Of a stretch of 64,000 nt of DNA, positions 15,196 to 62,186 are shown piece after piece; within the stretch, counting starts at the first letter, position 1, and each line of letters starts with the position of its first letter. The position numbers and the translations under genes are program-made. This DNA comes from Procambarus clarkii. Its lineage: Eukaryota > Arthropoda > Malacostraca > Decapoda > Cambaridae. Location: NCBI RefSeq assembly GCF_040958095.1, contig NC_091214.1, positions 7,115,600 through 7,179,599 of the forward strand, written 5' to 3'. Below the pieces are notes generated by a model. The model had not been told where the DNA came from. It was given only the letters and a program-made list of their open reading frames with translations, and searched no databases.

Positions 15196-15295
15196 CATGT
15201 ATATGATTGGGATTGGGTGGATATAAATAGGAGCTACCCAGTATGGGCCAATAGGCCTTCTGCAGTTACCTTTGTTCCTATGTTCTTATCCTGCA
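15196..15295 (+). mobile_element. LINE-A 3' tip, unit 2, downstream of array
   Basis: Carries the GGGCCAATAGGCCTTCTGC signature and continues the fragment cut at 13630. The CATGTAT at 15196-15202 duplicates 13624-13630. Confidence 0.85.
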
Positions 15296-27560: not shown

Positions 27561-27724
27561 TCTCATCAGCTTACCTCATTTTTTTTTACTTTCTCATCTC
27601 TCCTTCACCCATCCCACCCGTGTCCCCTCCCCCCTTTTTTCTTGTTCTTACCTTTCACCTCTTGTTACCGGCTCTTCACCTCACTCTTGTCTTACATATG
27701 CCCGTGCCTCTTATGTCCTCTTCG

Positions 27725-28366
27725 GAGCCGAAACCCCCACCAAAACGAATACCAGCTCCCATGCCCACTAAAACCGCGTGGGGTCTACCCATTCAGGAAG
27801 AGGGGGCACACGGCCCTTCACCATCGGCCATGGTGAAGGGTGAGAAGACAGTACAGGACAAAAAGAAAGATGGAGGACACAAGACTCATGTTCAAAGCAG
27901 TCGGCCTCCCATTTCATCCAGCAAGCACACTGGGGTTAATAGGAGTAGCAATTCCAGTGCCAAAGTTACCACCGAGAAGGGTATAAAAGCCACTAGGCCC
28001 TCAACCTGCACAACATTAAATAGTGCTCCCACTGAACTGAACGCTCTCTGGCCAATGCTCAAAACTTTGGTCACTGAGTTAATCGAAAGTCTGCTGTCTT
28101 CACATGGAATCAAGCAAACCACAGAGACTCGGAAGACAATTGAGCACAAGCTCAAAAAATTCGAAGATGTAATATCCACACCGTCAAGACAGCAGGGCAA
28201 GAGGCACCCCCATAAAAAGCAGTCCAGGTCGTCGGAAAGCGACATTGATGAGGCAATTTCAGGACCACTAAGAACCTATACCCCAATTGCAACCTCCATG
28301 GCGTGTTCATCAGACTCCATGGATACCACGGAATTATCAGCATATTCCAAGAACCTAGAATTCTAA
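27725..28366 (+). pseudogene. I-group LINE ORF1, 3' part
   Basis: About 213 codons are open from the insertion edge to a stop at 28364-28366. It is lysine, serine and proline rich, with a helical-looking segment 'LWPMLKTLVTELIESLL' and a basic stretch 'KRHPHKKQSRSSESD'. ORF1 proteins bind LINE RNA. No CCHC knuckle is visible in this part. The start is lost by 5' truncation. It overlaps the beginning of ORF2 in another frame. Confidence 0.75.
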
Positions 28367-31300
28367 AGATCCTGCAATGGAATGCGCAAGGACTGGGCAC
28401 TAAATTGCAACACATGCAATGCATAGCAGCAACCAAAGGCATAGACATCCTGATACTACAGGAGAGCTTGCTTCGAGCCGGATTAGAACCTAAAATCTCA
28501 GGCTATCGAGGCTTCTTCCTTCCATGGATCAATGGGCAATCCAGGGGATGTGCAATCTATGTAAAATGTGACCTGATCTCCAAATCCATAACCAGCCCAC
28601 CCAATTGTGGAGCAGGGACAGAGGTAATGGGAGTCACCATTGAGCTAAGACACGACAAACTTGAAGTGTTCAATGTGTACAGGTCTCCACAAGCCGAAAT
28701 GGATCTCTCTGTGTTATTTGGACACGCGACAACAACAAACACAATCATTTGTGGAGATTTTAATGCCCATCATCGATTGGCACTGGGCTCGAACAAAACA
28801 AATGAAGCCGGCATACACATTACACATCTACTGGACCAGCTTCCAGGAATACAAATCCTAAACAAGAATGAACCTACCCACATCCAAGGAGGCAGATTAG
28901 ACCTGACCTTCGTTTCAGTCTCCCTAAGAGATGCAGCAACATGGTCAGTTGAGCCCACACTCACAAGCGACCACTATGGGGTCCAAATTGATCTTCAGTT
29001 AGACCTACCCACCCCACCTCCGCCTCCATCTGAAGCCTGGAACTTTGCTTTAGCAAACTGGGACCGATTTCAAAACCTCATTTCAGAGTGGCAAAGAAAC
29101 TATGATCTTCCCGAAGACATTAATCAGGCAGAACAAGAATTTGTCAAAGCGATTCAAAGTGCAGCCAACCACTCAATCCCACTGAAAAAACAGTCCACCG
29201 GACACCATAAAGATCATTGGTACTATTGCGAACGTGTCAAAGAACTCAACCATAGACTCAATAGAACAAGAAAGCTATACAAAAAGCAGCCAAGTGCCCG
29301 CAACAGGATCTTACTTTGTGAGGTCAAGGAACATGTACATCGAGAGACCAGACAAATAAAAGAACAAAAGTGGCTAGAATGGTGTTCACACCTGAATGAA
29401 CACACCTCTCTCGGGGAGATGTGGCAGCAAATTCACCGGGCCAAAGGGAATAAAACACCTAAAGCTCCACACCCCAAAGATCCTCAACAGGAAGCCGAAG
29501 TACTGTCAACCAGGTTTGCAGAGAGAGCAGCCAGCAATCAACTTCCACCAGATGTATTAGCAGTACAGACCGAACTAGAGGAAGAAAGGTGGCACAGAAT
29601 CCTTACAGCATGTGAAGAAGTCTCTGACACTAATGCCCCCTTCACACTGGATGAGCTCAATCGGGCTAAGAAAAACTCCAAGGATACATCCCCTGGAGCC
29701 GACAAAATAACCTATAAAATGATTAGAAACCTCGGCCCAGAGGGAGACGCTGCATACCTAAGGTTAATTAATTTAGCCTGGACTTCTCAAACTAGACCTT
29801 CTGCTTGGAATAGAGCAGACATAGTGCCGATCCCAAAACCCAAAGATCCAGCTAATCCCAGGCCCATCTCTCTCCAAAGCTGTACAGCCAAGACGGCTGA
29901 CAGAATGGCACTCAACAGACTGGAGTGGAAAATGCCTAAACTGCACCATGATATGTATGCCTATAGAAGAGGGGTTGGCACAGTGGAATGTATTACAACT
30001 CTGTTAGCCCACTTGAATGACAGACCAGGGATGCTGATATTCCTGGACCTCGAAAAAGCCTTTGAACTGGCTAGCGCCCCAGCTATTCTCTGCTGCCTCA
30101 TTGACAAAGAGGTCAGAGGCAACCTGCTCTCCTGGACCAAAAACTGTCTCATAAACAGAGAAGCAAGAGTAAAACTTCATGGCACAGTCTCTGAGTACAA
30201 AAGACATGAAAATGGTACACCGCAAGGAGGTATTCTTAGCCCTCTTCTCTTCAACTGTTTAATGGAAAGAATAATGAGGTTGAAACTCCCACATCACTGC
30301 AGGCTGCTAAACTACGCGGACGACTTTGTCATCATCATAAAAGGAAGGGATGCGGCGCGCCTTGCACCCAAATGCTTAGACTGCATCAGTAAAGAGGCAA
30401 AACAGATTGGGATCAAACTCAACCCCTCAAAGTCAAAGGCCATGCCCATAAAAATAGCGAAGCCCAACATCCAACTCACAGTACAGGGTCAACCAATAGA
30501 ATGGGTCGACACCTATCAGTATCTAGGAATCATCCTGGACACACATGAATTTCAATGCAGAGGTCACTTACTTGAGAGAGCGAACTGCGGCCCGGACGGC
30601 AATCCTCAGGTCGCTAACCTCCCTTTCTGGAGGAGCCAATCTGCAAGTCCTTCGCACATACTATGTACAGGCAGTCAGATCAGTGATCGATTATGCCGCA
30701 CCTGCACTCACAAATCTATCACACCAACAGTGGAAAAAGCTTGAAGTTGCCCAAAACAATGCTATGAGAGCTGCACTGGGAGCCCCCATGTGGACCAGGC
30801 TTGAAACTCTTAGACTGGAGACGGGTTTGCCCTCTCTACAAGAAAGAATATCACAAAGGACAGCTACAATTATCAGTAAGATAATTATTTCTTCTGATCC
30901 AATCCCAGTACGGCAGGCTTTGGTGGTTGGACTAGGCCAAAACAATGGAAACTCTTGAGTTACAAGAGCAGGAAAAGTCCTAAACAGACTACATTTAAAA
31001 ACCATGATTCTTGATAGAGAGGGTGATCATCCACACCCAAATTACACTCCTTCCGCGCCGTGGGAAGAGCCTACTTTCAAAATAGTAATAGAAAGTCTCC
31101 CAATGAAAAAGGCTGCCTATGATCCGACAATCCTAAGGCGCATAATAGAAGAGCAAATGTATAGCATAGCAGTAGCAGGAGCCACCCACATCTTCACAGA
31201 CGGATCGGTGGACACAGAAAATGAGAGTGCTGGCGCTGCTCTTTGCACGACCAGCGTTCAGGCATATTGGAGACTGGGAGGACTAGTATCATCAACCCAA

Positions 31301-32059
31301 ACTGAGCTGTTTGCCATACAACAGGCATTCGCATATGTGATTGCACAAAACACTCAAAATGCAATCATACACACAGACTCAAAAGCTGCACTTCAAATAC
31401 TAGGACAAAAACAGTGGAAAGATAATGTGGAAATAATTATCACCATTTTGTATCAAGGAGCAGTCGCTAAAGGCAAAGGCCTCAACATAACTTTAAACTG
31501 GATCCCATCCCATATTGGAATCCCATTAAATGAAAAAGCTGATGAAATTGCTAAATTGGCAACTCGTCATCCAGTGATACATAAAACAATTCAACCCAGC
31601 CTAGAGAACATAAAAAACATCATCACCAAAAAACTCTCACATCTCAACAAAGCCTACCTACACCAGAGAATAGCTGAAGGTTCACCATCTGCAACATGGT
31701 ATCTTCAGGCAACCAAATTAGAAAGGTTAAATATCCCAAAAAGAATCCACAGGGAAATAGCAGTTAGGCTATATAGACTACGTCTAGGTTACAGATGCAA
31801 CTGGGAGATTGGTGAACCCCGAGAGAGAGAGTGCATCTTCTGCCAAACTGTCACAGAAAAGCCATTACTTCACTATCTTCTGGAATGTGAAGCAACCAAT
31901 GACCTTAGAAGAGCTTTAAGAGTTCCTGAATCATGCAGTGGCCACCCTGAAGCCATCAACACAGCCACTCTCCTGGTCAACAAAGGTGTCCAGCAGCTGG
32001 ACATCCTCATAAAGACTGTGAAGCAGTATCCTCCCCCACGATTACAGCTTGATGGTTAA
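28303..32059 (+). pseudogene. I-group LINE ORF2: endonuclease, reverse transcriptase, RNase H
   Basis: About 1250 codons, with one frameshift near 30545-30600 and one stop at 30956-30958. The endonuclease motifs are 'LQWNAQGL', 'ILQES', 'CGDFNAHH' and 'TSDHYGV'. RT motifs include 'DTSPGADKITYKMIRNL', 'MLIFLDLEKAFELAS', 'NGTPQGGILSPLLFN' and catalytic 'NYADDFVI' near 30310-30330. RNase H (about 31185-31560) shows 'FTDGSVDTENESAG', 'TELFAIQQA', 'HTDSKAAL' and 'NEKADEIAKLA'. A C2HC knuckle ('CIFCQ'...'HYLLEC') follows near 31830-31890. All catalytic residues I can check are present, so the copy is young and only lightly damaged. Confidence 0.92.
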
Positions 32060-35474: not shown

Positions 35475-36357
35475 TTGTATTGATAGTTAGTGCATCAGTA
35501 CACCAAGAACATTATTACTGCGTTAATACACCTCAGACATGTCATTTCAAATAATGAGGAAAGCTTTACGAGTGTTGTTATAATAAATGACCGGACGCAT
35601 TTCACTGCAAGGTTTACAATTCTTGTCAATAATGACTCGTATCACCTTCTTGTATGCCTGAGTGAATGGGTTTTTATAATGCACTAGATGCACTACGAAT
35701 TTATATGGTATACTACGTTCCTGGGCTTTGCTTAGAATATTTTTAAATAGGTTATATTTTGAATCCACATCGAAATCCCGTTTTACGTCACCTGTCGCTG
35801 GGTTCACGTCTAGCCCACACCACATCCCCAAGACATTCCAATCATTTTGACCCCAAAAAATTCTTAGGCTATTGAAATCAGCTTTTCGAAAATCAGGCAC
35901 TTTAACAGAATTTTCTCCTATAGGTCTATTCCATTCAATGCTAAATCTGATTTCTTTATGATCACTGTTCCCTAGCTCGCTCCCTATTTCCATCTCCTTA
36001 ATTTGTGTTTCCCTGTTAGTTAACACTAAATCTAAAATATTATTTCCCCGCGTTGGTTCCTAAATATGTTGCATAAGAAAGCAATCGTCAATTAATTCTA
36101 GGAAGTCTTTTGCTTCATTATTCCCTGTTTTGTTCACCCAGTTTATTCCACTAAAATTAAAGTCATCCATGACATAAATACTGTTAGATCTAGATGCTCT
36201 AGATATTTCATCCATAGAAGCTTTGCTTCCATTCTGTCTAAATTTGGTGGCCTATATATAACTCCTATTATAATAATATTTGCTATTTCGTTTAATTCTA
36301 TCCAAATAGTTTCTGTGTGTGACTCAGATTTGATTCCCTCTTTGAGACTACATATCA
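34343..36357. repeat. Duplication unit 4 (truncated)
   Basis: Only LINE-B and the 5' half of the inverted LINE-A piece remain. Homology stops within the LINE-A endonuclease region, where a C-rich minisatellite begins. The array breakpoint therefore lies at about 36357. Confidence 0.88.
35547..36357 (-). mobile_element. LINE-A 5' half, unit 4, truncated by minisatellite
   Basis: Equivalent of 9469-10573. Sequence identity stops at the 'CATATCAA' position, where the 26-bp repeat begins. Confidence 0.8.
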
Positions 36358-38880
36358 ACTGGCCACACCACGCTGCCCACACAACTGGCTCCACCACACT
36401 GTCCCCCACAACTAGCCCCACAACACTGCCCCACACAACTGGCCCCACTACACTGCCCCCACAACTGGCCCCACCACACTGCCCACACAATTTTCCGCAC
36501 CAAGCTGCCCACTCAACTGGCCCCGCCACACTGCCCACACAACTGGCCCGGCCACACTGCCCACACATCTGGCCCCATCACACTGCCCCCACAGCTGGCC
36601 CCAGCACACTGCCCCACACAACTGGCCAACCACACTGCCACCACAGCTGGCCCCACCCTACTTCCCCACACAACTGGCCCCACCACACTGCCCACACAAC
36701 TGGCCCCACCACACTGCCCGCACAACTGGCCCCACCAAACTGCCGACACAACTGGTCCCACCACACTGCCCCGACAACTGGTCCCACCACACTGCCCCCA
36801 CAGGTGACACCCCCACACTGCCCCACACAACTGGCCCCACCACCATGCCCGCAAAACTGGCCCCACGAAACTGCCCACACAACTGGCCCCACCACCATGC
36901 CCGCAAAACTGGCCCCACGAAACTGCCCACACAACTGACCCCACCACACTGCCCATAGAACTGGCCCAATTACACTGCCCCCACAACTGGCCCCACTACA
37001 CTGCCCTCACAACTGGCCCCACCTCGCTACCCACACAACTGGCTCCACCACACTGCCCACACAACTTGCCCCTCCATGCTGCCCACACAACTGGCCCCAC
37101 CACACTGCCCACACAACTGGCCCCACCACACTGCCCACCCAACTGGCCCCACCACACTGCTCACACAACTGGCCCGACACAACACTGCCCACACAACTGG
37201 CCCTTCCACGCTGCGCACACAACTGGCCCCCCACCACACTGCCCACACAACTGGCCCGTCCACACTGCCCACACAACTGGCCCCACTACACTACCCACAC
37301 AACTGGCTCCACCACACTGCTCCACACCACTGGCTCCTCCACACTGCCCACATAACTGGCCCCTCCACACCACTGGCTCCACCACACTGCACACTCAACT
37401 GGCCCCACCTCACTGCCCACACAACTGGCCCCACTACACTGCCCACACAACTGGCCCCATCACACTGCCCATAGAACTGGTCCCACTACACTGCCCACAC
37501 AACTGGCTCTACCACGCTGCCAACACAACTGGCTCCACCACACTGCACACACAATTGGCCCCACAACAATGCCCACACAACTGACCCCACGACGCTGCCC
37601 ACACATCTGGCCCCACCACACGGCCCACACATCTGGCCACACCACGCTGCCCAAACAACTAGCCCCACCACACTGCCACCACACTGCCCACACAACTGGC
37701 CCCACAACACTGCCCACACAACTGGCCCCACCACACTGCCCACACAACTGGCCCCACAACACTGCCCACACAAATGGGCCCACCACACTGCCCACACAAC
37801 TGGCCCACCGCACTGCCCACACAACTGGTCCCACTACACTGCACACAACTGGCTCCTCCACACTGCCCACACAACTGGCCCCACCACACTGCCCACACAA
37901 CTGGTCCCACCACACTGCACACACAACTGGCCCCACCACACTGCCCACACAACTGGTCCCACTACACTGCACACAACTGGCTCCTCCACACTGCCCACAC
38001 AACTGGCCCCACCACACTGCCCACACAACTGGCCCCACCACACTGCCCACACAACTGGCCCCACCACACTGCCCACACAACTGGTCCCACCACACTGCAC
38101 ACACAACTGGCCCCACCACACTGCCCACACAACTGGTCCCACTACACTGCACACAACTGGCTCCTCCACACTGCCAACACAACTGGCCCCACCACACTGC
38201 CCACACAACTGGCCCCACTACACTGCACACAACTGGTCCCACCACACTGCCCACACAACTAGCCCCACCACACTGCCCACACAACTAGCCCCACCACACT
38301 CCCCACACAACTGGTCCCACTACACTGCACACAACTGGCTCCTCCACACTGCCCACACAACTGGCCCCACCACACTTCCCACACAACTGGTCCCACCACA
38401 ATGCCCATAGAACTGGCCCCAGTACACTGCACACAACTGGTCCCACCACACTGCCCACACAACTGGTCCCACTACACTGCACACAACTAGCTCCACCTCA
38501 CTGCCCCCACAGGTGACACCACCACACTGCCCCACACAACTGGCCCCACCACTCTGCCCGCAAAATTGGCCCCACGAAACTGCCCACACAACTGGTCCCA
38601 CCACGCTGCCAACAAGTAGCCCCACAACACTACCCCCACAACTGGTCCCACCACACTGCCCCAAACTACTGGGCACACCACTCTGCCCACACAACTGGCC
38701 CCATCACACTGCCCACACAAATGGCCCGAACATACTGCCCACACAACTGGCCCCACCACATTGCCCCAACAACTGGCCCCACCACACTGCCCTACACCAC
38801 AGGCCCCACCACACTGCCCACACAACTGGCCCAATTACACTGCCCCCACAACTGGCCACACCACACTGCCCTCACAACTA
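36358..38880. repeat. 26-bp C-rich minisatellite, about 95 copies
   Basis: Imperfect tandem copies of a 26-bp unit (core CCACACTGCCCACACAACTG). The plus strand is extremely C-rich and G-poor. Variants include runs with CCATAGAACTGG and higher-order repeats near 37800-38200. Because 26 is not a multiple of three, all frames cycle through the same heptapeptides. The long overlapping ORFs on both strands are therefore meaningless. Confidence 0.95.
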
Positions 38881-46517: not shown

Positions 46518-47436
46518 TGAGAGGTTACCAACACCAATTGTGTATATAATTTCTCATGAGTAGAGAATTATTCAATATTTAAACTAAAAACCCAGTTTAA
46601 ATATATTGCACTTTTTTTCTACTACGCAATATATATATTCTAGTAGCTGCAAGCCAACCCACATTAGAGTAGGATATTAATATTGACTAGTGTTGAACTA
46701 AATATTGATCAACCAAGTCCATTTGTGTTACCACTGACATCCTTGCACCATTAATTAAGTGTGCTAATCCTTATATAGGGTAGGACCAATATCAGCATTA
46801 GTTGTGTTGTGCATCAATAATTATATACTTTTTTATAAATTTACCTATTATATAAACCGTTGAGTGTTAATAAGTGTCTCTGTACCAACCAATGGTGATA
46901 AGGAAGAGCTAGCCTGAGGAATTCCCACAGTAACACTGATTACCTCTCAAAGTATTTCTGTTTGATTATATATATATTACTAATAATTTCCAAACCTCCA
47001 AGGAGGTATGATTCTAGCCTAGTGATAGGAAATATGTCCCTAAGCTACTATCATTAGCATTTGCTCAAGATTATAATTTCAATATCTTCTTTCTTTATTA
47101 TGCACCTCATACCCATTCCGTGGGTGGTGGTGTAAAGGATTACAGAGGCACATAATCGGTTCAGGAACTGAACCCTCTAGTTCGTTTAGCTAAGCAAATA
47201 ACAATCTTTTGACGCTAATTACAAAACTATTAATGTTATATATACATGTACACATACTCATGCATACATGTACATATACATACGTATACATATATACACA
47301 CACATACATATTTAATCACCCACACAAATACACACATCAATAATTTTTTGTGTCACAAATGATTCAACAAGAGGCTCACAACAGTCACTATACAAGTCAC
47401 TTTACATCTATGAGGAGTCACACAGTTACTAGTCTT
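46518..47436. other. No gene seen; AT-rich and short tandem DNA
   Basis: AT-rich sequence with a purine/pyrimidine-alternating run of ATAC/ACAT motifs at about 47238-47315. No ORF or RNA gene recognised. Confidence 0.5.
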
Positions 47437-48042
47437 GCTCCACACCCACCCAACTGGGCGGCAGCTTTACAGTCATGTGCTCTACACCCACCCAACTGGG
47501 CGGCAGCTTTACAGTCACGTGCTCTACACCCACCCAACTGGGCGGCAGCTTTACAGTCATGTGCTCCACACCCACCCAAATGGGCGGCAGCTTTACAGTC
47601 GTGTGCTCCACACCCACCCAACTGGGCGGCAGCTTTGCAGTCATGTGCTCCACACCCACCCAACTGGGCGGCAGCTTTACAGTCATGTACTCCACACCCA
47701 CCCAACTGGGCGGCAGCTTTGCAGTCGTGTGCTCCACACCCACCCAAATGGGCGGCAGCTTTACAGTCATGTACTCCACACCCACCCAACTGGGCGGCAG
47801 CTTTACAGTCATGTATTCCACACCCACCCAACTGGGCGGCAGCTCTACAGTCGTGTGCTCCACACCCACCCAACTGGGCGGCAGCTTTGCAGTCATGTGC
47901 TCCACACCCACCCAACTGGGCGGCAGCTTTACAGTCATGTACTCCACACCCACCCAACTGGGCGGCAGCTTTACAGTCATGTGCTCCACACCCACCCAAC
48001 TGGGCGGCAGCTTTACAGTCATGTACTCCACACCCACGCAAC
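47437..48042 (+). repeat. 42-bp minisatellite, left part
   Basis: About 14 copies of a 42-bp unit containing CCACCCAACTGGGCGGCAGC. Since 42 is a multiple of three, most frames stay open and read as 14-residue repeats, but nothing else suggests a protein. The array is interrupted at 48042 by the foldback element and continues at 61757. Confidence 0.95.
48037..48042 (+). repeat. Target site duplication, left copy (CGCAAC)
   Basis: The array consensus here is CCCAAC. The variant CGCAAC appears in the array only on the two edges of the 13.7-kb element. Confidence 0.9.
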
Positions 48043-48061
48043 AGTAGTAGGGATGGCTCCA

Positions 48062-48232
48062 CACAGACGATATTTTTTTTCAGGTCAAATATCGTCTGTG
48101 CGGGCCATGGTTTTCAGGTTCCAAAGGGAAAATATCGTCTGTGCGGGCCAGGGTTTTCAGATTCCAATATCGTCGGTGTGAGCCAGGGTTTTGAGGTTCC
48201 AATATCTCGCGTGTGAGCCAGGGTTTTCAGGT
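48062..48232 (+). repeat. Subterminal repeats of the foldback element (mirror at 61567-61737)
   Basis: Four copies of a 37-44 bp motif with ATATCGTCTGTG and GCCAGGGTTTTCAGG, plus one inverted ACAGACGATATTT next to the tip that forms a small hairpin. Their position suggests binding sites for the mobilising protein, but this is inference. Confidence 0.8.
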
Positions 48233-48844
48233 AAATTTTGTGTCACAGATTTTAGAAGTATGGAATTCTTATGAGAAAATAATTTCCGAGACTTAGAAGT
48301 TTGTTAAGGCCTTATGGGACAAATTCAAGTAACGTATGTAGCTCTTTAGGGTTTCCATGAGAACTCTACGGACATATTTTACATGTTTTCAACTTACAAA
48401 ATCGTCTATGTAAGCCTTAGTTATTCATATAAATTTAGAAAGTTATCTGTATAAGTCATGGTTTTCAAGTCTCGTACATCACACCCCCCTCCCTCCCTCC
48501 CCCCCTTACCTCGCAATCTGTCGCGTCACCTTTATTTACTTTACGCCCGGCCAGCCAGACATCTTATCTTATCTTCTCCATAATAATATCTCAACCGTCC
48601 CTCCTCTCTCTCTCTCTCTCCTTTCATTCAGTTCAGTTCAGTTCAGTTCAACTATTTTCCAACATCGTATGTTTGCTCCTTTTCATTAAGCAAGTCAGTT
48701 TTACACAAATAAATCATGTTAGTAAGCATGTTCTAGCTCACGTTCCCCCACCTTAGTCCCCTGTCGTATAATGAATACTATCATTCCAATCCCTCTAAAA
48801 TTTTAAATAATCATATTTCAAATGTAGTTCAATACAGTAATTTA

Positions 48845-49440
48845 GTTACCAAGCTCCAGCGCTTGTCCTCCGCCTTAGCTCTCTCTCGTATCTTCGTTAG
48901 TATCAGTCCAATTTCCCTGAAATTTTTACCCTCTGTATTTCGGGCACCGTAAATAAGATCAAAACAGTTACCAAGCTCCAGCGCTTGTCCTCCGCCTTAG
49001 CTCTCTCTCGTATCTTCGTTAGTATCAGTCCAATTTCCCTGAAATTTCTACTCTCTGTATTTCAGGCACCGTAAATAAGATCAAAACAGTTACCAAGCTC
49101 CAGCGCTTGTCCTCCGCCTTAGTTCTCTTTCGTATCTTTGTAAATAAACCATCAATTTCCCTTAAATTTTTACCCTCTGTATTTCAGACACCGTAAATAA
49201 AATCAAGTCAGTTATCGAGCTCCAGCTCTCGTCCCCGCCTTAATTCTCTTTCGTATCTTTGTAAATAACCCATCAATTTCCCTAAAATTAAAAGCAGACA
49301 TACTTCAAAGTTAGTAAATAAGATCAAGTCAGTTACTGAGCTCCAGCTCTCGTCCCCCACCCTCTTCCACCCTCAAGTCTTTGTAAATAAACCATCAATT
49401 TCCCCGAAATTTTTACCCTCTGTATTTCAGACATAGTAAA
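48845..49440 (+). repeat. 122-bp tandem repeats in left arm (mirror about 60360-60965)
   Basis: Units begin GTTACCAAGCTCCAGCGCTT. The first three are spaced 122 bases (48845, 48967, 49089). Two further units are more diverged. Confidence 0.85.
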
Positions 49441-49879
49441 TATGATGAAAACAATTATAAAACTCTAGCTCTTGTCCTCTGTCCAAGTTCACTCCTGTAA
49501 ATTCATTACTATCAATCCAAATCCCCCTGAGATTTAAACACCCAACTACATTTTCAGACATAGTAAATAAAAACCAGTTCAGTTATCAAGTTTCAACTCT
49601 TGTGCCCCAGCTTAGTTCATTTGTGCAAGTTCTTTATTTTCCAACTAAATCACCCTGAGATTTAAGATCACCTTATTTCTAACGTAGTAAAATTAATCTG
49701 GACATTAGCAAAGCTCCATTTCCTCAGCCTTAGATCATCAGACATAAATATATTCGATCAAGTCCCTCTCCAGCCTATCTGTTTATCAGAGTAATTACTT
49801 TACCCTTCTCATCCCCAACGTATCAATCCCCAACGTATCAAAACCTTCAATAATCATACTGTATTTGCATATTTTCTCT

Positions 49880-51185
49880 ATATTCAGCTGTGTTCTTCAC
49901 ATTTTGTCCATGTTTTCTGTGTTCACTCCATGTTCTTCAAATGTTCACAGTCCCATTCAGTTCATATTTTCACAAGTATCTCCATTTTTTATGTAATATT
50001 TCTCTTAGTCTCATTATGTTCTCTACAAATTCTAGTCATATTTTCTATGTTTTCATATTCATCACATGTTCTCTTTACAACTTTTATACTCAATATTCAT
50101 GCTAACTTCCATATTTTGTGTTCTTTGTCAATATTCATGTTCCTCTACAAGTTCATGTTCCTCACAAGATCACTTCGTTTTTCACCTTCACTTACATGTT
50201 TTCTACATTCTTTTGTCATATTCTCCATGTTCTTCACAAGTCCATTGTTCATTCTTTGTAATCCCTATTCTCCTTATCATGTTTTCATGTTCTCTGTAAG
50301 TTCATATTCCCAGCATGTTCACTGTATTCATCAACTTTTCTTACATGTGTTCTTTGCCATGTTCCCCATATGTTCTCTGGGTTTTTCCCCTTACATGTTA
50401 TTTAACGTTCCTTAACTAAAAAAATCTTTCGCCAATCAACTAAAAACATAGTCACTTTCGTCATTTCTCAACTAAACCTATTATCCAGTCAACTAAAAAT
50501 AGTCAGAAATAGCTTCGTTCAACACTGTTCTTAACTAAAACAACCTTTCTCTTAGCTAAAAATTGTCAAAGGAAACTTTTTCAGCACTTTCTTAACAGGC
50601 GCTATGTTTCATCAAGAAAAATTGTCAAAGGAAACTTTCCAAAACTGTTCATAACTAGCTTTTATCCATCGTCAATCAACTAAAAATAATAACTTTCATC
50701 ATTTCTTAACTAAACATATTCCCCATTCATCAGAAAATAACCGTGTTCATCATGTTTCAGTGTCATTTCTTAACTAAAATTATCTGCCAATCATCAGAAA
50801 AAGTCATGTTCATCATGTTTTGGCTTTTGCTCAACTAAAAGTATTCATCGGTCAACTGAAAATAGTTACTTCATCATGTTTCCTTGTCATTTCTTAACTG
50901 AAATATCACTTCTCTCATCTGAAAATAGTCGGGATTAACCTCATTCAACACCGTTCTTAACTAAAACAGCCTTTCGCTTAGCTAAAAATTGTCAAAGGAA
51001 TCTTTTCAGCACTGTTCATAACTAACTTTATCCATCGTCAAGTAAGAAAATATAGTCAAAGATATCTATCATCGTCGTTCTTAACTGACATTTATACTTT
51101 GTGGAGCACTAAAATAGTCAAATGTAACTTTTTCAACACTTTCGTAACTAAAATTATATGTCGCTAAGTAAGAAAAATAGTCAAA
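49880..51185 (+). repeat. ATGTTC-rich and TTCTTAACTAAAA repeat domains (mirror about 58620-59930)
   Basis: Irregular short repeats: ATGTTC/TTCATGTT to about 50410, then CATTTCTTAACTAAAA with GTCAACTAAAAATAGTC motifs. Frames open here (for example 49930-50415) are low-complexity and have no similarity I recognise. Confidence 0.75.
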
Positions 51186-51189
51186 GGTG

Positions 51190-52520
51190 CTCTCCGTTAC
51201 ACCAAAGTTACTCTTCGAGAAATCAAAGACACTCTTCAATACATCAAGGACTTACTCAAAGACACCAAAGTTACACTCTAAGACATCCTTCGAGACATCA
51301 AAGACTTCCTTAAGACTTCAATGGGACTCTTCCATTCATCAAAGACATTCTCTAAGCCCTCAAAGTTATTCTCAGCACAATCAAAAGTTATTCCAAGACA
51401 ACAAAAGTTATTCTCAGAACAATCAAAAGTTATTCCAAGACAACAAAAGTCATTCTCAGAGCTATCAAAATTATTCTCGGAGTCATCAAAAGGTATTCTC
51501 TAACTCACTTTTGGTCATTAAAGTTAATTTCTATGTTATAAAAGTTTGTCTCAGAGACATCTAAAGTTAATCTTAGAGTTATCAAATGTAATCTCTAACT
51601 CTTTTTTGTTCATCAAAGTTGATCTCAGAGTTAACAAAGGTAATCTCTAACTCACTCTCGTTCATCAAAGTTGTTTCAAAGACAACAAAAGTTATTCAAA
51701 GAGCTAACAAAAGTTATTCTCAGAGTCACCTTCGTTCTTCAGAGAAACTTTCCAAAACATCTTTATTCATCAAAGTTATTCTCAGAGGCATAAAAGTCAT
51801 TCTCAGAGCTATCAAACTTGTTCTCAAAGTCATCAAACTTATTCACAGAGTCATCAAAGTTAATCTAAGACATCATTTTTCAAAGATATTCTCTCTAAAC
51901 CATCAATGTTCTTCTCTAAGACATAAAAGTTATTCTCAGAGTCACCTTCGTTCGTCAGAGAAACTTTCAAAACATCTTTGTTCATCAAACTTGTTTTCAA
52001 AGTCATCAAAAGTTAATCTAAGACATCTGCTTTCATCAAAGTTATTTTCAGAGACATCTAAAGTTATTCTCAGAGCTATCAAACTTGTTCTCAGAGTCAT
52101 CAAATGTTATTCTCGAAGTCATCAAAGATATTTTCAGAGACATCTAAAGTTAATTTCTGTTATAAAAGTTATTCTCAGAGACATCTAAAGTTAATCTTGG
52201 TCATCAAAGTTGTTCTCTAAACATCAATGTTGTTCTCCAAGACATCAAAGATGTTCTCAAAATCATAAAAGTTATTCCCAGAGCTATCAAAGTTAATCTC
52301 AGAGTTATCCAAAGATATTCTCATGTCCACAAAAGTTATTCCAAGAGACGTCAAAGTTAATCTCAGACATCTTCGTTCATAAAAGTTATTCTCAGAGACA
52401 TCAAAGTGATCTCTAATTCACCTTCGTTCACCCAAAGTTGTTCTCTAAGACACCTTCGTTCATCAAAGAAACTCTCCTTCTTCCATCATGTTATTCTTTA
52501 AGACATCTTCAGGCATAAAA
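51190..52520 (+). repeat. CATCAAAGTTATTCTCAGAG repeat domain (mirror about 57290-58615)
   Basis: Dozens of imperfect 20-30 bp repeats. The apparent proteins of 125 and 189 codons are translations of this repeat. Confidence 0.85.
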
Positions 52521-52639
52521 TTTCTCCCCAAATGTAACTAGTTCAGCTTTTCATATCAAACTTACACTTCTGTTAAATATATTTTCTTAGACATTTTACC
52601 TTTTAAACTGTTCTCTGAACTACACTGTTCAAACCTACG

Positions 52640-53530
52640 TAACCTATCCTCTCCACCCAATGTTACTTAGTTAACGTAACGTTCCTAAACCTAACTTTAC
52701 CTATCCTAACATAACTTACCTTACCTTACCTATCTTACCTAACTTTACCTATGTTACCTAACTTAACCTTCATAACCTAACTTTACCTATCCTAACATAA
52801 CTTACCTTACCTTCCCTATCTTACCTAACTTTACCTATCCTAACATAACTTACCTTACCTACCTTACCTAACTTAACCTGCTTAACCATACCTTACCTTA
52901 CCTTCACTATCTTACCTAACTTTACCTATCTTACCTAACTTTACCTATATTACCTTACCATACCTTACCTATCTTACTGACTTTACCTATCTTACCTAAC
53001 TTAACCTGCATAACCTAACTTTACCTATGTTACCTTACCTACCTTTCCTAACTTAACCTGCTTAACCTATCTTACCTAACTTTACCTATATTACCTTACC
53101 ATACCTTACCTATCTTACTGACTTTACCTATCTTACCTAACTTAACCTGCATAACCTAACTTTACCTATGTTACCTTACCTACCCTACCTATCTTACCTA
53201 ACCTAACCTAACTTTACCTATGTTACCTAACTTAACCTTCATAACCTAACTTTACCTATCCTAACATAACTAACCTTACCTAACTTAACCTGCTTAACCT
53301 TACCTTACCTTACCTTACCTATCTTACCTAACTTAACCTGCATAACCTAACTTTACCTATGTTACCTTACCTTACCTACCTTTCCTAACTTTACCTATCT
53401 TACCTAACTTACCTACATTACCTAACTTAACTTAACCTGCTTAACCTAACTTACCTTACCGTACCTAACTTATATATCTTATCTTACCTATCCTAACGTA
53501 ACCTAACTTGCTTTACCTAACTTAATCTTA
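52640..53530 (+). repeat. Degenerate TTACC/AACCT pentamer domain, left arm
   Basis: About 0.9 kb of pentamer-like DNA (CTTACCTAACTTTACC-type words). It recalls the arthropod telomere repeat TTAGG/CCTAA but is irregular in phase and dominated by other words. Confidence 0.85.
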
Positions 53531-54017
53531 CATTCCCAAACTGATGTATCCTAACTTATCTAGTCAAACCAGACATGATCTAACTTAAGTATTCCTTCTT
53601 GTCTTTGTGTTTCGTCAATCATTGTCTCATTCATTTACTCATTTCATTAGTTAATTTCTCAAATGGACGTTTTGCATTTCAAGTGTTATTTGTTTAAGAT
53701 TGGATATTTATGCATTTCAAAGAATTATAATTTCTCAAATGGACGTTTTTGCATTTCAAGTGCTATTTGTTAGAGATTGGATATTTAAGCATTTCAAAGA
53801 ATTTTTGTTATATATGGGCATTTACTCATTTCAAGGGATAATTTCTCAAATGGACGTTTTTGCATTTCAAGTGTTATTTTGTTTAAGATTGGGTATTTAA
53901 CCATTTCAAAGGATTTTTGTTATATATGGGAACTTACTCGTTTCAAGGGCTAATTTCTCAAATGGTCATTTTTGCAGATCAAGGGTTATTTGTTAAAGTT
54001 CATCAAGTTGCCCATAA

Positions 54018-54275
54018 GTTGTATTAGTAGGTTCTATCTTATGTTCTTATTCCCCAACCCCTTAACCTAACCTCTTGTAATCTTAGTGTATTAGTAGGTT
54101 CTATCTTATGTTCTTATTCCCCAACCCCTTAACCTAACCTCTTGTAATCTTAGTGTATTAGTAGGTTCTATCTTATGTTCTTATTCCCCAACCCCTTAAC
54201 CTAACCTCTTGTAATCTTAGTGTATTTAGTAGGTTCTATCTTATGTTCTTATTCCCCGACCCTTTAACCTAACCT
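54018..54275 (+). repeat. 66-bp tandem repeats, left (four; mirror 54860-55165 has five)
   Basis: Unit contains TAGTAGGTTCTATCTTATG and CCCCTTAACCTAACC. It lies at the inner end of each arm. Confidence 0.9.
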
Positions 54276-54342
54276 TTCAGATGTAGTTTTGTTTCTCCTT
54301 TTTGTATATTTTTACCCAAACCTTCTTTCCTTCTTTACTTTG

Positions 54343-54793
54343 TTTTCACATATAAGTTCATTCTTTATCTTAGTAATAATAAAATTACAATAGTAAAGAA
54401 TCAGATCTACTATGACTTGAAATTGAGAAACAAGAGCTCAAGGGAGTGAGAGCATGAAAGAAGAGCAAGGAGTAAGAGAGAGGGGGCGGAAGAAAATGGG
54501 ACCAAAGAAGAGAGAATGAGAGAGAGAGTGTGGGCATGGGGGAACTAAGACTTGAATTTGAGAAAAAAGAAAACTAAGTGAATGAGAGTGAGGGTGTGAG
54601 AATGGGAGCACTAAGACTTGAATTGAGAAAAAGAAAAACTAAGTGAATGAGAATGAGGGCGTGAGAATGGGAGCAATAAGACTTGAATTTGAGAAACAAG
54701 AGAGCATTTGAGCAAATGAGGGAGAGAGAGGGGGAGGAAGAGAGAGAATAAGGGAGAGAGATAGAAAAGGAGGGTTAGAAGGAGTAGGAGAAT
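54343..54793. other. Foldback spacer, 451 bp
   Basis: The only unpaired part of the element. It is purine-rich on the plus strand, with GAGAGAG runs and a repeated block of about 75 bases 'ACTAAGACTTGAATT'. No ORF of interest. Confidence 0.9.
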
Positions 54794-57700
54794 CAAAGTA
54801 AAGAAGGAAAGAAGGTTTGGGTAAAAATATACAAAAAGGAGAAACAAAACTACATCTGAAAGGTTAGGTTAAAGGGTCGGGGAATAAGAACATAAGATAG
54901 AACCTACTAAATACACTAAGATTACAAGAGGTTAGGTTAAGGGGTTGGGGAATAAGAACATAAGATAGAACCTACTAAATACACTAAGATTACAAGAGGT
55001 TAGGTTAAGGGGTTGGGGAATAAGAACATAAGATAGAACCTACTAAATACACTAAGATTACAAGAGGTTAGGTTAAGGGGTTGGGGAATAAGAACATAAG
55101 ATAGAACCTACTAAATACACTAAGATTACAAGAGGTTAGGTTAAGGGGTTGGGGAATAAGAACATAAGATAACAAACATAATAAATACAACTTATGGGCA
55201 ACTTGATGAACTTTAACAAATAACCCTTGATCTGCAAAAATGACCATTTGAGAAATTAGCCCTTGAAACGAGTAAGTTCCCATATATAACAAAAAATCCT
55301 TTGAAATGGTTAAATACCCAATCTTAAACAAATAACACTTGAAATGCAAAACGTCCATTTGAGAAATTAACTATGAAATGAGTAAATGAATATGAGACAA
55401 TGATTGACGAAACACAAAGACAAGAAGGAATACTTAAGTTAGATCATATCTGGTTTGACTAGATAAGTTAGGATACATCAGTTTGGGAATGTAAGATTAA
55501 GTTAGGTAAAGCAAGTTAGGTTACGTTAGGATAGGTAAGATAAGATATATAAGTTAGGTACGGTAAGGTAAGTTAGGTTAAGCAGGTTAAGTTAAGTTAG
55601 GTAATGTAGGTAAGTTAGGTAAGATAGGTAAAGTTAGGAAAGGTAGGTAAGGTAAGGTAACATAGGTAAAGTTAGGTTATGCAGGTTAAGTTAGGTAAGA
55701 TAGGTAAGGTAAGGTAAGGTAAGGTTAAGCAGGTTAAGTTAGGTAAGGTAGGTAAGGTAAGTTATGTTAGGATAGGTAAAGTTAGGTTATGAAGGTTAAG
55801 TTAGGTAACATAGGTAAAGTTAGGTTAGGTTAGGTAAGATAGGTAGGGTAGGTAAGGTAACATAGGTAAAGTTAGGTTATGCAGGTTAAGTTAGGTAAGA
55901 TAGGTAAAGTCAGTAAGATAGGTAAGGTATGGTAAGGTAATATAGGTAAAGTTAGGTAAGATAGGTTAAGCAGGTTAAGTTAGGAAAGGTAGGTAAGGTA
56001 ACATAGGTAAAGTTAGGTTATGCAGGTTAAGTTAGGTAAGATAGGTAAAGTCAGTAAGATAGGTAAGGTATGGTAAGGTAATATAGGTAAAGTTAGGTAA
56101 GATAGGTAAAGTTAGGTAAGATAGTGAAGGTAAGGTAAGGTATGGTTAAGCAGGTTAAGTTAGGTAAGGTAGGTAAGGTAAGTTATGTTAGGATAGGTAA
56201 AGTTAGGTAAGATAGGGAAGGTAAGGTAAGTTATGTTAGGATAGGTAAAGTTAGGTTATGAAGGTTAAGTTAGGTAACATAGGTAAAGTTAGGTAAGATA
56301 GGTAAGGTAAGGTAAGTTATGTTAGGATAAGCAGGTTAAGTTAAGTTAGGTAATGTAGGTAAGTTAGGTAAGATAGGTAAAGTTAGGAAAGGTAGGTAAG
56401 GTAAGGTAACATAGGTAAAGTTAGGTTATGCAGGTTAAGTTAGGTAAGATAGGTAAGGTAAGGTAAGGTAAGGTTAAGCAGGTTAAGTTAGGTAAGGTAG
56501 GTAAGGTAAGTTATGTTAGGATAGGTAAAGTTAGGTTATGAAGGTTAAGTTAGGTAACATAGGTAAAGTTAGGTTAGGTTAGGTAAGATAGGTAGGGTAG
56601 GTAAGGTAACATAGGTAAAGTTAGGTTATGCAGGTTAAGTTAGGTAAGATAGGTAAAGTCAGTAAGATAGGTAAGGTATGGTAAGGTAATATAGGTAAAG
56701 TTAGGTAAGATAGGTTAAGCAGGTTAAGTTAGGAAAGGTAGGTAAGGTAACATAGGTAAAGTTAGGTTATGCAGGTTAAGTTAGGTAAGATAGGTAAAGT
56801 CAGTAAGATAGGTAAGGTATGGTAAGGTAATATAGGTAAAGTTAGGTAAGATAGGTAAAGTTAGGTAAGATAGTGAAGGTAAGGTAAGGTATGGTTAAGC
56901 AGGTTAAGTTAGGTAAGGTAGGTAAGGTAAGTTATGTTAGGATAGGTAAAGTTAGGTAAGATAGGGAAGGTAAGGTAAGTTATGTTAGGATAGGTAAAGT
57001 TAGGTTATGAAGGTTAAGTTAGGTAACATAGGTAAAGTTAGGTAAGATAGGTAAGGTAAGGTAAGTTATGTTAGGATAGGTAAAGTTAGGTTTAGGAACG
57101 TTACGTTAACTAAGTAACATTGGGTGGAGAGGATAGGTTACGTAGGTTTGAACAGTGTAGTTCAGAGAACAGTTTAAAAGGTAAAATGTCTAAGAAAATA
57201 TATTTAACAGAAGTGTAAGTTTGATATGAAAAGCTGAACTAGTTACATTTGGGGAGAAATTTTATGCCTGAAGATGTCTTAAAGAATAACATGATGGAAG
57301 AAGGAGAGTTTCTTTGATGAACGAAGGTGTCTTAGAGAACAACTTTGGGTGAACGAAGGTGAATTAGAGATCACTTTGATGTCTCTGAGAATAACTTTTA
57401 TGAACGAAGATGTCTGAGATTAACTTTGACGTCTCTTGGAATAACTTTTGTGGACATGAGAATATCTTTGGATAACTCTGAGATTAACTTTGATAGCTCT
57501 GGGAATAACTTTTATGATTTTGAGAACATCTTTGATGTCTTGGAGAACAACATTGATGTTTAGAGAACAACTTTGATGACCAAGATTAACTTTAGATGTC
57601 TCTGAGAATAACTTTTATAACATAGAAATTAACTTTAGATGTCTCTGAAAATATCTTTGATGACTTCGAGAATAACATTTGATGACTCTGAGAACAAGTT

Positions 57701-60700
57701 TGATAGCTCTGAGAATAACTTTAGATGTCTCTGAAAATAACTTTGATGAAAGCAGATGTCTTAGATTAACTTTTGATGACTTTGAAAACAAGTTTGATGA
57801 ACAAAGATGTTTTGAAAGTTTCTCTGACGAACGAAGGTGACTCTGAGAATAACTTTTATGTCTTAGAGAAGAACATTGATGGTTTAGAGAGAATATCTTT
57901 GAAAAATGATGTCTTAGATTAACTTTGATGACTCTGTGAATAAGTTTGATGACTTTGAGAACAAGTTTGATAGCTCTGAGAATGACTTTTATGCCTCTGA
58001 GAATAACTTTGATGAATAAAGATGTTTTGGAAAGTTTCTCTGAAGAACGAAGGTGACTCTGAGAATAACTTTTATGTCTTAGAGAAGAACATTGATGGTT
58101 TAGAGAGAATATCTTTGAAAAATGATGTCTTAGATTAACTTTGATGAACGAGAGTGAGTTAGAGATTACCTTTGTTAACTCTGAGATCAACTTTGATGAA
58201 CAAAAAAGAGTTAGAGATTACATTTGATAACTCTAAGATTAACTTTAGATGTCTCTGAGACAAACTTTTATAACATAGAAATTAACTTTAATGACCAAAA
58301 GTGAGTTAGAGAATACCTTTTGATGACTCCGAGAATAATTTTGATAGCTCTGAGAATGACTTTTGTTGTCTTGGAATAACTTTTGATTGTTCTGAGAATA
58401 ACTTTTGTTGTCTTGGAATAACTTTTGATTGTGCTGAGAATAACTTTGAGGGCTTAGAGAATGTCTTTGATGAATGGAAGAGTCCCATTGAAGTCTTAAG
58501 GAAGTCTTTGATGTCTCGAAGGATGTCTTAGAGTGTAACTTTGGTGTCTTTGAGTAAGTCCTTGATGTATTGAAGAGTGTCTTTGATTTCTCGAAGAGTA
58601 ACTTTGGTGTAACGGAGAGCACCTTTGACTATTTTTCTTACTTAGCGACATATAATTTTAGTTACGAAAGTGTTGAAAAAGTTACATTTGACTATTTTAG
58701 TGCTCCACAAAGTATAAATGTCAGTTAAGAACGACGATGATAGATATCTTTGACTATATTTTCTTACTTGACGATGGATAAAGTTAGTTATGAACAGTGC
58801 TGAAAAGATTCCTTTGACAATTTTTAGCTAAGCGAAAGGCTGTTTTAGTTAAGAACGGTGTTGAATGAGGTTAATCCCGACTATTTTCAGATGAGAGAAG
58901 TGATATTTCAGTTAAGAAATGACAAGGAAACATGATGAAGTAACTATTTTCAGTTGACCGATGAATACTTTTAGTTGAGCAAAAGCCAAAACATGATGAA
59001 CATGACTTTTTCTGATGATTGGCAGATAATTTTAGTTAAGAAATGACAATGAAACATGATGAACACGGTTATTTTCTGATGAATGGGGAATATGTTTAGT
59101 TAAGAAATGATGAAAGTTATTATTTTTAGTTGATTGACGATGGATAAAAGCTAGTTATGAACAGTTTTGGAAAGTTTCCTTTGACAATTTTTCTTGATGA
59201 AACATAGCGCCTGTTAAGAAAGTGCTGAAAAAGTTTCCTTTGACAATTTTTAGCTAAGAGAAAGGTTGTTTTAGTTAAGAACAGTGTTGAACGAAGCTAT
59301 TTCTGACTATTTTTAGTTGACTGGATAATAGGTTTAGTTGAGAAATGACGAAAGTGACTATGTTTTTAGTTGATTGGCGAAAGATTTTTTTAGTTAAGGA
59401 ACGTTAAATAACATGTAAGGGGAAAAACCCAGAGAACATATGGGGAACATGGCAAAGAACACATGTAAGAAAAGTTGATGAATACAGTGAACATGCTGGG
59501 AATATGAACTTACAGAGAACATGAAAACATGATAAGGAGAATAGGGATTACAAAGAATGAACAATGGACTTGTGAAGAACATGGAGAATATGACAAAAGA
59601 ATGTAGAAAACATGTAAGTGAAGGTGAAAAACGAAGTGATCTTGTGAGGAACATGAACTTGTAGAGGAACATGAATATTGACAAAGAACACAAAATATGG
59701 AAGTTAGCATGAATATTGAGTATAAAAGTTGTAAAGAGAACATGTGATGAATATGAAAACATAGAAAATATGACTAGAATTTGTAGAGAACATAATGAGA
59801 CTAAGAGAAATATTACATAAAAAATGGAGATACTTGTGAAAATATGAACTGAATGGGACTGTGAACATTTGAAGAACATGGAGTGAACACAGAAAACATG
59901 GACAAAATGTGAAGAACACAGCTGAATATAGAGAAAATATGCAAATACAGTATGATTATTGAAGGTTTTGATACGTTGGGGATTGATACGTTGGGGATGA
60001 GAAGGGTAAAGTAATTACTCTGATAAACAGATAGGCTGGAGAGGGACTTGATCGAATATATTTATGTCTGATGATCTAAGGCTGAGGAAATGGAGCTTTG
60101 CTAATGTCCAGATTAATTTTACTACGTTAGAAATAAGGTGATCTTAAATCTCAGGGTGATTTAGTTGGAAAATAAAGAACTTGCACAAATGAACTAAGCT
60201 GGGGCACAAGAGTTGAAACTTGATAACTGAACTGGTTTTTATTTACTATGTCTGAAAATGTAGTTGGGTGTTTAAATCTCAGGGGGATTTGGATTGATAG
60301 TAATGAATTTACAGGAGTGAACTTGGACAGAGGACAAGAGCTAGAGTTTTATAATTGTTTTCATCATATTTACTATGTCTGAAATACAGAGGGTAAAAAT
60401 TTCGGGGAAATTGATGGTTTATTTACAAAGACTTGAGGGTGGAAGAGGGTGGGGGACGAGAGCTGGAGCTCAGTAACTGACTTGATCTTATTTACTAACT
60501 TTGAAGTATGTCTGCTTTTAATTTTAGGGAAATTGATGGGTTATTTACAAAGATACGAAAGAGAATTAAGGCGGGGACGAGAGCTGGAGCTCGATAACTG
60601 ACTTGATTTTATTTACGGTGTCTGAAATACAGAGGGTAAAAATTTAAGGGAAATTGATGGTTTATTTACAAAGATACGAAAGAGAACTAAGGCGGAGGAC

Positions 60701-61756
60701 AAGCGCTGGAGCTTGGTAACTGTTTTGATCTTATTTACGGTGCCTGAAATACAGAGGGTAGAAATTTCAGGGAAATTGGACTGATACTAACGAAGATACG
60801 AGAGAGAGCTAAGGCGGAGGACAAGCGCTGGAGCTTGGTAACTGTTTTGATCTTATTTACGGTGCCCGAAATACAGAGGGTAAAAATTTCAGGGAAATTG
60901 GACTGATACTAACGAAGATACGAGAGAGAGCTAAGGCGGAGGACAAGCGCTGGAGCTTGGTAACTAAATTACTGTATTGAACTACATTTGAAATATGATT
61001 ATTTAAAATTTTAGAGGGATTGGAATGATAGTATTCATTATACGACAGGGGACTAAGGTGGGGGAACGTGAGCTAGAACATGCTTACTAACATGATTTAT
61101 TTGTGTAAAACTGACTTGCTTAATGAAAAGGAGCAAACATACGATGTTGGAAAATAGTTGAACTGAACTGAATGAAAGGAGAGAGAGAGAGAGAGGAGGG
61201 ACGGTTGAGATATTATTATGGAGAAGATAAGATAAGATGTCTGGCTGGCCGGGCGTAAAGTAAATAAAGGTGACGCGACAGATTGCGAGGTAAGGGGGGG
61301 AGGGAGGGAGGGGGGTGTGATGTACGAGACTTGAAAACCATGACTTATACAGATAACTTTCTAAATTTATATGAATAACTAAGGCTTACATAGACGATTT
61401 TGTAAGTTGAAAACATGTAAAATATGTCCGTAGAGTTCTCATGGAAACCCTAAAGAGCTACATACGTTACTTGAATTTGTCCCATAAGGCCTTAACAAAC
61501 TTCTAAGTCTCGGAAATTATTTTCTCATAAGAATTCCATACTTCTAAAATCTGTGACACAAAATTTACCTGAAAACCCTGGCTCACACGCGAGATATTGG
61601 AACCTCAAAACCCTGGCTCACACCGACGATATTGGAATCTGAAAACCCTGGCCCGCACAGACGATATTTTCCCTTTGGAACCTGAAAACCATGGCCCGCA
61701 CAGACGATATTTGACCTGAAAAAAAATATCGTCTGTGTGGAGCCATCCCTACTACT
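54794..61756 (-). repeat. Right inverted arm, 7.0 kb
   Basis: Same domains in mirrored order. The length differs from the left arm mostly by repeat number: a 749-bp duplication in the pentamer domain, one extra 66-bp unit and two fewer CAAATGG-type units. Long stretches show only rare single-base differences; the 161-codon frame at 59394-59879 reads the same as its mirror at 49930-50415. Confidence 0.95.
55460..57115 (-). repeat. Degenerate GGTAA/TTAGG pentamer domain, right arm, with 749-bp duplication
   Basis: The mirror of the left pentamer domain, but twice as long. The block at 55580-56328 is repeated at 56329-57077, starting AAGCAGGTTAAG each time. Confidence 0.88.
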
Positions 61757-61762
61757 CGCAAC
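61757..61762 (+). repeat. Target site duplication, right copy (CGCAAC)
   Basis: Matches 48037-48042 exactly and is followed by TGGGCGGCAGC, which continues the array. Confidence 0.9.
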
Positions 61763-62186
61763 TGGGCGGCAGCTTTACAGTCGTGTGCTCCACACCCACC
61801 CAACTGGGCGGCAGCTTTACAGTCGTGTGCTCTACACCCACCCAACTGGGCAGCAGCTTTACAGTCACGTGCTCTACACCCACCCAACTGGGCGGCAGCT
61901 TTACAGTCATGTGCTCCACACCCACCCAACTGGGCGGCAGCTTTACAGTCGTGTGCTCCACACCCACCCAACTGGGCGGCAGCTTTACAGTCATGTGCTC
62001 CACACCCACCCAACTGGGCGGCAGCTTTACAGTCATGTGCTCCACACCCACCCAACTGGGCGGCAGCTTTGCAGTCATGTGCTCCACACCCACCCAACTG
62101 GGCGGCAGCTTTGCAGTCATGTGCTCCACACCCACCCAACTGGGCGGCAGCTTTACAGTCGTGTGCTCCACACCCACCCAACTGGG
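61757..62186 (+). repeat. 42-bp minisatellite, right part
   Basis: About ten copies in the same orientation and phase as 47437-48042. The array ends where a TGTAAC-beginning LTR starts. Confidence 0.95.

Follow-up and report, generated by a model that had tools for sequence, protein, structure and literature searches.

What kind of element is 13.7 kb long, consists almost wholly of its own inverted repeats and carries no visible gene? The question arises from a 64,000-nucleotide stretch of the Procambarus clarkii genome (Decapoda, Cambaridae; RefSeq assembly GCF_040958095.1, contig NC_091214.1, positions 7,115,600 to 7,179,599 of the forward strand), hereafter the window, in which a foldback element that we call W occupies positions 48043-61756 (13,714 bp; genome place C65:7163642-7177355). 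Most probably, W is a full-length, non-coding and non-autonomous member of the Mavericks/Polintons that a resident Maverick would move and copy in trans, with a hairpin that would keep the arms alike and a size window that may set the length. At the level of sequence, W and its sisters resemble elements with PolB, integrase and capsid-type genes in their (AGT)2 tips, in the plan of the hairpin and in terminal repeats that are shared over about 0.6 kb. The original prediction, made from the letters of the window, had left a choice between a new class and a giant non-autonomous passenger. Because of its ends, its 6-bp duplication and its coding relative W is grouped with Mavericks/Polintons; the passenger is retained, on the strength of the same-base ends and the coding relative, and the new class is given up.

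Architecture and insertion of W

The predicted form, a 13.7-kb foldback that is nearly all terminal inverted repeat, was recovered. The inverted match defines a left arm of 6,303 bp (48043-54345, plus strand) and a right arm of 6,966 bp (54791-61756, minus strand), between which 445 bp remain as a loop (54346-54790) inside the innermost inverted match; the layout is as predicted, while the predicted lengths of 6,300, 6,963 and 451 bp are corrected slightly. The terminal repeats of W fill the entire element, which is unusual. Its left tip AGTAGTAGGG (48043-48052, plus strand) is the (AGT)2 end motif, the right tip reads CCCTACTACT (61747-61756, minus strand), and both tips and the flanking 6-bp duplication are as first described. 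The arms are unequal because of a tandem duplication of about 749 bp that is confined to the right one (55731-57078, minus strand; 599-bp match between 55731-56329 and 56480-57078). Across the outer 5.5 kb they are 98.5% identical with 32 mismatches and 52 gap positions, the differences lying mostly at tandem arrays.

A subterminal hairpin with a 14-bp stem and an 11-nucleotide loop is found at 48062-48100 (plus strand) and in mirror form at 61699-61737. Folded as DNA, the 68-nucleotide tip of W reaches -18.4 kcal/mol (z -7.5). The hairpin folds in all four tip variants tested, with stem letters that differ between the variants, and the integrase or the initiation of replication may use it as a site.

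W lies within a 42-bp minisatellite (plus strand) whose left part spans 47436-48042 and whose right part runs from 61757 to 62186, and it is bordered by the target-site duplication CGCAAC (48037-48042 and 61757-61762, both plus strand). At the equivalent position, 18 of the other array units counted have CCCAAC and 2 have CCCAAA; the duplicated hexamer is a one-base variant of the target array unit. When the flanks are joined without W, 23 of 23 unit spacings equal 42 bp and the phase of the array is restored. The duplication of this variant together with the restored phase demonstrates that W is an insertion.

That W has no visible gene was confirmed by frame tests and by Rfam, where no family reached the gathering score for W. 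We compared the two longest arm frames (206 and 198 amino acids) with 18 other copies. Runs of insertions or deletions that are not a multiple of three make up 56 of 64 in the 206-residue frame and 119 of 154 in the 198-residue frame, and substitutions by codon position amount to 84/133/70 and 149/145/184, respectively, with no third-position excess in the former and a slight one in the latter. A coding role of both frames was rejected on the indel pattern and the codon-position counts. W has none of the PolB, integrase and capsid genes of a Maverick/Polinton and, being non-coding, is not an autonomous Maverick.

Copies with the same ends across the genome

The host assembly comprises 4.03 Gb and each DNA search scored the best 40 places, so that family counts are lower bounds. 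With the outer 189 bp of W as query the best 40 of 1,569 candidates were scored. Among these, 32 form 16 head-to-head pairs (15 of 12.3-14.8 kb, one of 8.5 kb), one is the inner tip of the short pair and seven are single. Seventeen copies were read at both ends, namely the 16 pairs, W included, and the copy C12; six further single places were read inwards over 10 kb, starting at the tip or, in C74, at base 31 of the query, and show inverted arms in six of six cases. An exact 6-bp target-site duplication, as in Mavericks/Polintons, is present at 15 of the 17 copies (14 of the 16 pairs, and C12 with GATAGC), and all 15 hexamers differ from each other. As a control, left and right flanks of different copies were paired, and the hexamers matched in 1 of 240 combinations. 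In copy C38a a duplication CTTGCA shows if one extra AGT is assigned to the left tip, a shift of 3 bp. The original prediction had named, as the mark of a mobile family, several copies with a common terminal base and differing 6-bp duplications, and the search with the outer arm returned many of them.

The left tip reads AGTAGTAGGG in W and in 12 others of the 17 copies, AGTAGGGGGG in C38a, C38b and C14, and AGTAGTGGGG in C8a. The ends follow the (AGT)2 ... (ACT)2 pattern of Mavericks/Polintons, and the motif of the left tip of W is that of vertebrate Mavericks as given in the excerpted text of PMC8097293. Three classes of element have this one kind of end: non-coding foldbacks (14 of the 17 copies, W included), cargo elements and the helper.

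A query from deep within the arm (window 49900-50100) yielded 1,848 candidates, the best 40 of which all match at 99-100% identity; 32 of these 40 form 16 head-to-head pairs, 14 of them new, beyond W and C25. Scored places for integrase, capsid or cargo genes are absent from the 13 kb on either side of each of the 40. Judged from these matches, the foldback family is large.

Near-perfect large palindromes are a known artefact shape, as would arise from chimeric inverted reads during library preparation or assembly. Here the copies bear different 6-bp duplications at 15 places, the phase of the 42-bp array is intact across W, and the arms differ by substitutions and in W also by the 749-bp duplication, which makes an artefact extremely unlikely.

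Two further observations concern the history of single copies. The foldback at C12:30844364-30856780 has tips about 15% apart and yet one shared duplication, which would fit a recombination between two subfamilies that preceded insertion. Two foldbacks on C8, about 267 kb apart, have the same 20-bp flank in opposite orientation and are probably one insertion that was later copied by inverted duplication.

A resident Maverick/Polinton as presumed helper

The coding relative that the original prediction had sought exists in the same genome as a Maverick/Polinton with the same end motif, to which we were led by the copy C38b. Its 467-residue capsid-type protein has 91 scored genome places at 99-100% identity, 88 of them without stops and two of them in C38b; the integrase has 150 scored places that are 95-100% identical, 149 without stops. 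For 80 of the 91 capsid places there is a scored integrase at a distance of 3.3-4.8 kb on the same strand, and for none on the other strand. A scored PolB place is found on the same strand near 23 of the 91 and again never on the other strand, a count that covers only the best PolB places, for which several PolB lineages compete, and rests on 91 of 95 rows, four second fragments being left out. Further PolB (PF03175) places have long open frames (about 1,250 amino acids and others) with a different match profile, and suggest that this genome harbours more than one Maverick family.

One helper at C12:24893752-24906933 measures 13,182 bp, has identical 176-bp tips (176/176) and is flanked by the duplication CATAAT on both sides. 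Pieces from its inside match rve (6.8e-9), Chromo (1.1e-6) and part of DNA_pol_B_2 (profile positions 11-220 of 468, 1.6e-8). Its tip begins with AGTAGTAGGG, continues with the hairpin and short-repeat plan in diverged letters and then enters 172 bp that are 91% like the arm of W, where the stretch 91% identical to the tip region of this autonomous Maverick lies at window positions 48247-48413. W and a coding member thus have homologous terminal repeats.

As far as read, the helper gene order is protease-like, 467 amino acids, 144 amino acids, further frames and integrase. In vertebrate Mavericks, integrase, minor capsid, PW, major capsid and protease genes form a module (excerpted text of PMC8097293). 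Because the gene order agrees, we take the 467-residue protein as a putative major capsid protein, by gene order only. It has no convincing Pfam match, and among viral contigs tried as a source of relatives seven stretches matched a pattern and none was a relative. The protease-like protein (176 amino acids) has no match in the PDB by sequence and in Pfam only a sub-threshold one to Peptidase_C48 (14.3 bits versus a cut-off of 20.7). Relatives of two family proteins, with 55% and 98% identity, are annotated in Procambarus clarkii itself, in agreement with the decapod host that the original prediction had presumed.

Classical Foldback-type elements (FB, Galileo or Tetris kind), which would be driven by a P, hAT or MULE transposase, are likewise built of long arms, with tandem repeats inside them, around a short loop. 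Foldback and Galileo elements have target-site duplications of 7-9 bp and such a transposase, whereas W has 6 bp and an integrase-type helper. The 6-bp duplications, the (AGT)2 tips and the terminal repeat held in common with integrase-bearing Mavericks render this origin very unlikely. As a Maverick relative, W would instead be inserted in trans by the integrase of the resident Maverick, together with the other foldbacks, and the protein-primed polymerase of the helper would copy them.

The lengths point in the same direction. We collected 31 tip pairs, 17 from the outer-tip search of W and 14 from a second tip search (best 40 tips each); in the latter only pairs 5-20 kb apart were counted, elements with one lost end drop out, and the content of all but nine of these 14 pairs is assigned. 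Whatever their content, 29 of the 31 span 12.0-14.8 kb, and two are about 8 kb long. Two capsid-bearing tip pairs measured 13.1 and 13.2 kb, and W is as long as the presumed helper. A common length would follow from a packaging or replication window, and the size of about 12-14 kb, like that of the helper, may reflect such a window.

Likeness of the arms and inheritance of the loop

In arm-to-arm alignments of 13 non-coding copies, 11 have at most six substitutions in the outer 6 kb, counted without gaps, the largest of which is 1,130 bases in C8a. The remaining two are W, with 19 substitutions in the outer 5 kb followed by array differences, and C32a with 190 in 6 kb. In the fourteenth non-coding copy, C12, which stands outside this alignment, the arms are 74-95% alike in pieces. 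Over the outer 590 bp, different copies are 2.0-12.1% apart (mean 6.9%, 136 comparisons), whereas in 14 of the 17 copies the divergence between left and right end is 0-0.9%. The nearest relative of the left tip is the right tip of the same copy in 15 of 17 copies, and in 14 of 17 the left and right tips are either identical or placed as sisters by the tree (the right tip of C12 includes four flanking bases in both the comparison and the tree). The loop of W is matched in the 13 other non-coding two-ended copies, in both orientations. The likeness of arms within copies together with a loop matched between copies indicates that the arms have been re-homogenised repeatedly while the loop was passed on. 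A fresh fold-back as origin of each copy was ruled out by the conserved loop.

Arms could be identical simply through youth, each copy deriving from a master whose arms were already identical. The integrase, 95-100% identical across its 150 scored places, makes recent activity likely. This explanation is nevertheless improbable. Copies differ among themselves far beyond their own arms, so that many masters would each have needed identical arms, which amounts to homogenisation again, and left and right arms as two clades were looked for in the tree, which gave the opposite in 14 of 17 copies.

The main rival accepts the same Maverick relative and has its arms kept identical after insertion, by in-place gene conversion in the chromosomal palindrome. 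The patchy arm differences of C32a, C3 and C32b resemble conversion tracts, and the arms of most short-loop copies are more alike than those of C3 and C32b, which have a 6-kb core and 12 and 36 substitutions per kb. However, helper tips 13 kb apart are just as identical (176/176), and C32a and C12 are not homogenised despite short loops of 679 and 739 bp. We regard in-place conversion as a possible but rather doubtful explanation.

We favour correction during replication of the Maverick relative. Under strand-displacement replication the displaced strand of a foldback would fold into a hairpin with a stem of about 6 kb and a loop of about 0.4 kb. Each arm could then template the other, so that arms would be alike in new copies and the loop inherited. 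In protein-primed linear genomes such as that of adenovirus, the ends anneal as panhandles and one end is repaired from the other; in W such a panhandle would span the entire element.

Cargo elements and a capsid-gene palindrome

The second class comprises the cargo elements C3 (12.8 kb, duplication TCAGCC) and C32b (12.5 kb, CACGTG), whose arms of about 3.4 kb surround a 6-kb core. The core holds an IAP-type gene in two frames, with a BIR domain in both and RING in one, a 425-residue protein with one relative found (Procambarus clarkii, 98%) and three mutually alignable proteins (25 and 29% identity to the first). Polymerase, integrase and capsid genes are absent from both cores. A comparison of the C3 and C32b frames gave 18 synonymous and 18 non-synonymous differences, a ratio of non-synonymous to synonymous change (pN/pS) of 0.26 and a Fisher p of 7e-5; the ratio covers the gene set, since single genes have too few differences, and one frame enters with its last 310 codons only. 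By this ratio the cargo genes are selected as a set.

The 425-residue gene has 99 scored places, 93 without stops, and five tip pairs among the 31 include it. All 99 are more than 13 kb away from each of the 91 scored capsid places. Near one of them, C8:40308395, scored places for integrase and PolB occur at distances of 10.6 and 13.9 kb, respectively. One cargo protein has no PDB match by sequence. The three related proteins, used as a profile against the PDB, gave one weak match of doubtful meaning (E 0.0045); that they are macro-domain-like is no more than a guess.

The copy C38b (C38:23393139-23401614, 8.5 kb) consists of a capsid-type gene block in palindromic arrangement (a protease-like protein of 176 amino acids and two proteins of 467 and 144). 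Its arms are 100% identical around an 82-nucleotide turn, a second terminal repeat stands in tandem at the right end, and two different tandem arrays flank it. About 580-690 bp of its terminal repeat are common with the 10 copies compared (87-95%); in W the shared part is the outer 670 bp or so (48043-48713, plus strand, 87%; mirror 61086-61756, minus strand). C38b has the form that would be expected of a fold-back copy of a coding element.

Neighbouring sequence in the window

In window positions 1-36000 near-identical frames recur at a spacing of about 8-16 kb, among them a 204-residue frame at 1787, 10065 and 20005 and a C2H2 zinc-finger-like frame of 206 residues at 6252, 16172 and 32340. 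Named from the letters, this region is a segmental repeat with retroelement and zinc-finger pieces. Long frames of 830 and 366 residues lie inside one segmental repeat at 27476-32059; by their motifs (endonuclease, reverse transcriptase, RNase H) they look like those of a retrotransposon lacking long terminal repeats. A 260-bp unit is repeated six times at 13633-15198 with 99% matches. A 2.5-kb minisatellite at 36356-38879 has a GC-rich 26-bp unit, strong strand skew and open frames in several registers.

Discussion

Several observations weigh against the explanation that we prefer. The outer 170 bp or so of the single helper tip read is unlike W, except for AGTAGTAGG and the hairpin plan, and the exact helper lineage of W is therefore not pinned down. 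C38b lacks a target-site duplication. Three of the 17 copies have arms that are not homogenised (C32a 2.4%, C3 5.8%, C12 15.6% over the outer 590 bp), and in C32a, C3 and C32b the arms differ in patches that look like conversion or recombination tracts rather than one clean copying step and fit replication-time or in-place correction alike. Since the copies have a conserved loop in common, W did not itself arise by folding back. Finally, trans mobilisation, packaging and hairpin-mediated arm correction are steps that we infer from comparing sequences.

Non-autonomous DNA transposons usually shrink. This gene-less passenger keeps the length of its helper, and its halves stay alike, which makes two processes testable by sequence: Maverick packaging, through a size window acting on gene-less DNA, and the end repair of Mavericks by way of a single strand annealed to itself. 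A virus-like division of labour among integrated elements with common ends comes in with the cargo class. Tentatively, the three classes may form a multi-component integrating virus, in which an element of about 13 kb provides polymerase, integrase and capsid, a companion of equal length and like ends holds the IAP and other selected genes, and a third, of almost purely self-complementary DNA at unit length, is moved and packaged as a satellite. If so, the foldback would be a size-selected genome filler or an interfering satellite whose hairpin form replaces ordinary terminal repeats; we know of no such filler or satellite for a Maverick.

Comparison with known systems

In the literature searched, mostly open journals, we found no gene-less foldback relative of Mavericks, which is not proof of absence, and for non-autonomous or defective Polintons/Mavericks only the wording 'Polinton-derived'. 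Protein-primed linear viruses give rise to defective palindromic genomes of the copy-back or snap-back kind, in which one end is present twice around a short turn. In W, too, the same end stands on both sides of a short turn, the form that C38b also shows. In copy-back genomes the turn position differs between events, whereas the turn of W is conserved in 13 other non-coding copies as an inherited form, and W carries no viral gene. Satellite viruses and virophage-like passengers are, like W, gene-poor and seemingly helper-dependent with a matched length; here there are two passenger classes, one of them non-coding, known from sequence and not from a particle.

For vertebrate Mavericks the excerpted text of PMC8097293 gives 6-bp duplications, (AGT)2//(ACT)2 ends, lengths of 12.7-24.6 kb and terminal repeats of 46-1,447 bp. 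W agrees in end motif, duplication and size; it differs in having no gene and in terminal repeats of 6.3 and 7.0 kb. With Galileo (PMC3573991) and Tetris (PMC4079207), as described in the portions consulted, W has in common very long inverted repeats and, with Galileo, internal repeats, while the 6-bp duplication, the Maverick ends and the likely integrase/PolB helper set it apart. The machinery is ordinary and the form unusual: W is a non-autonomous Maverick relative that has been taken over by its terminal repeats.

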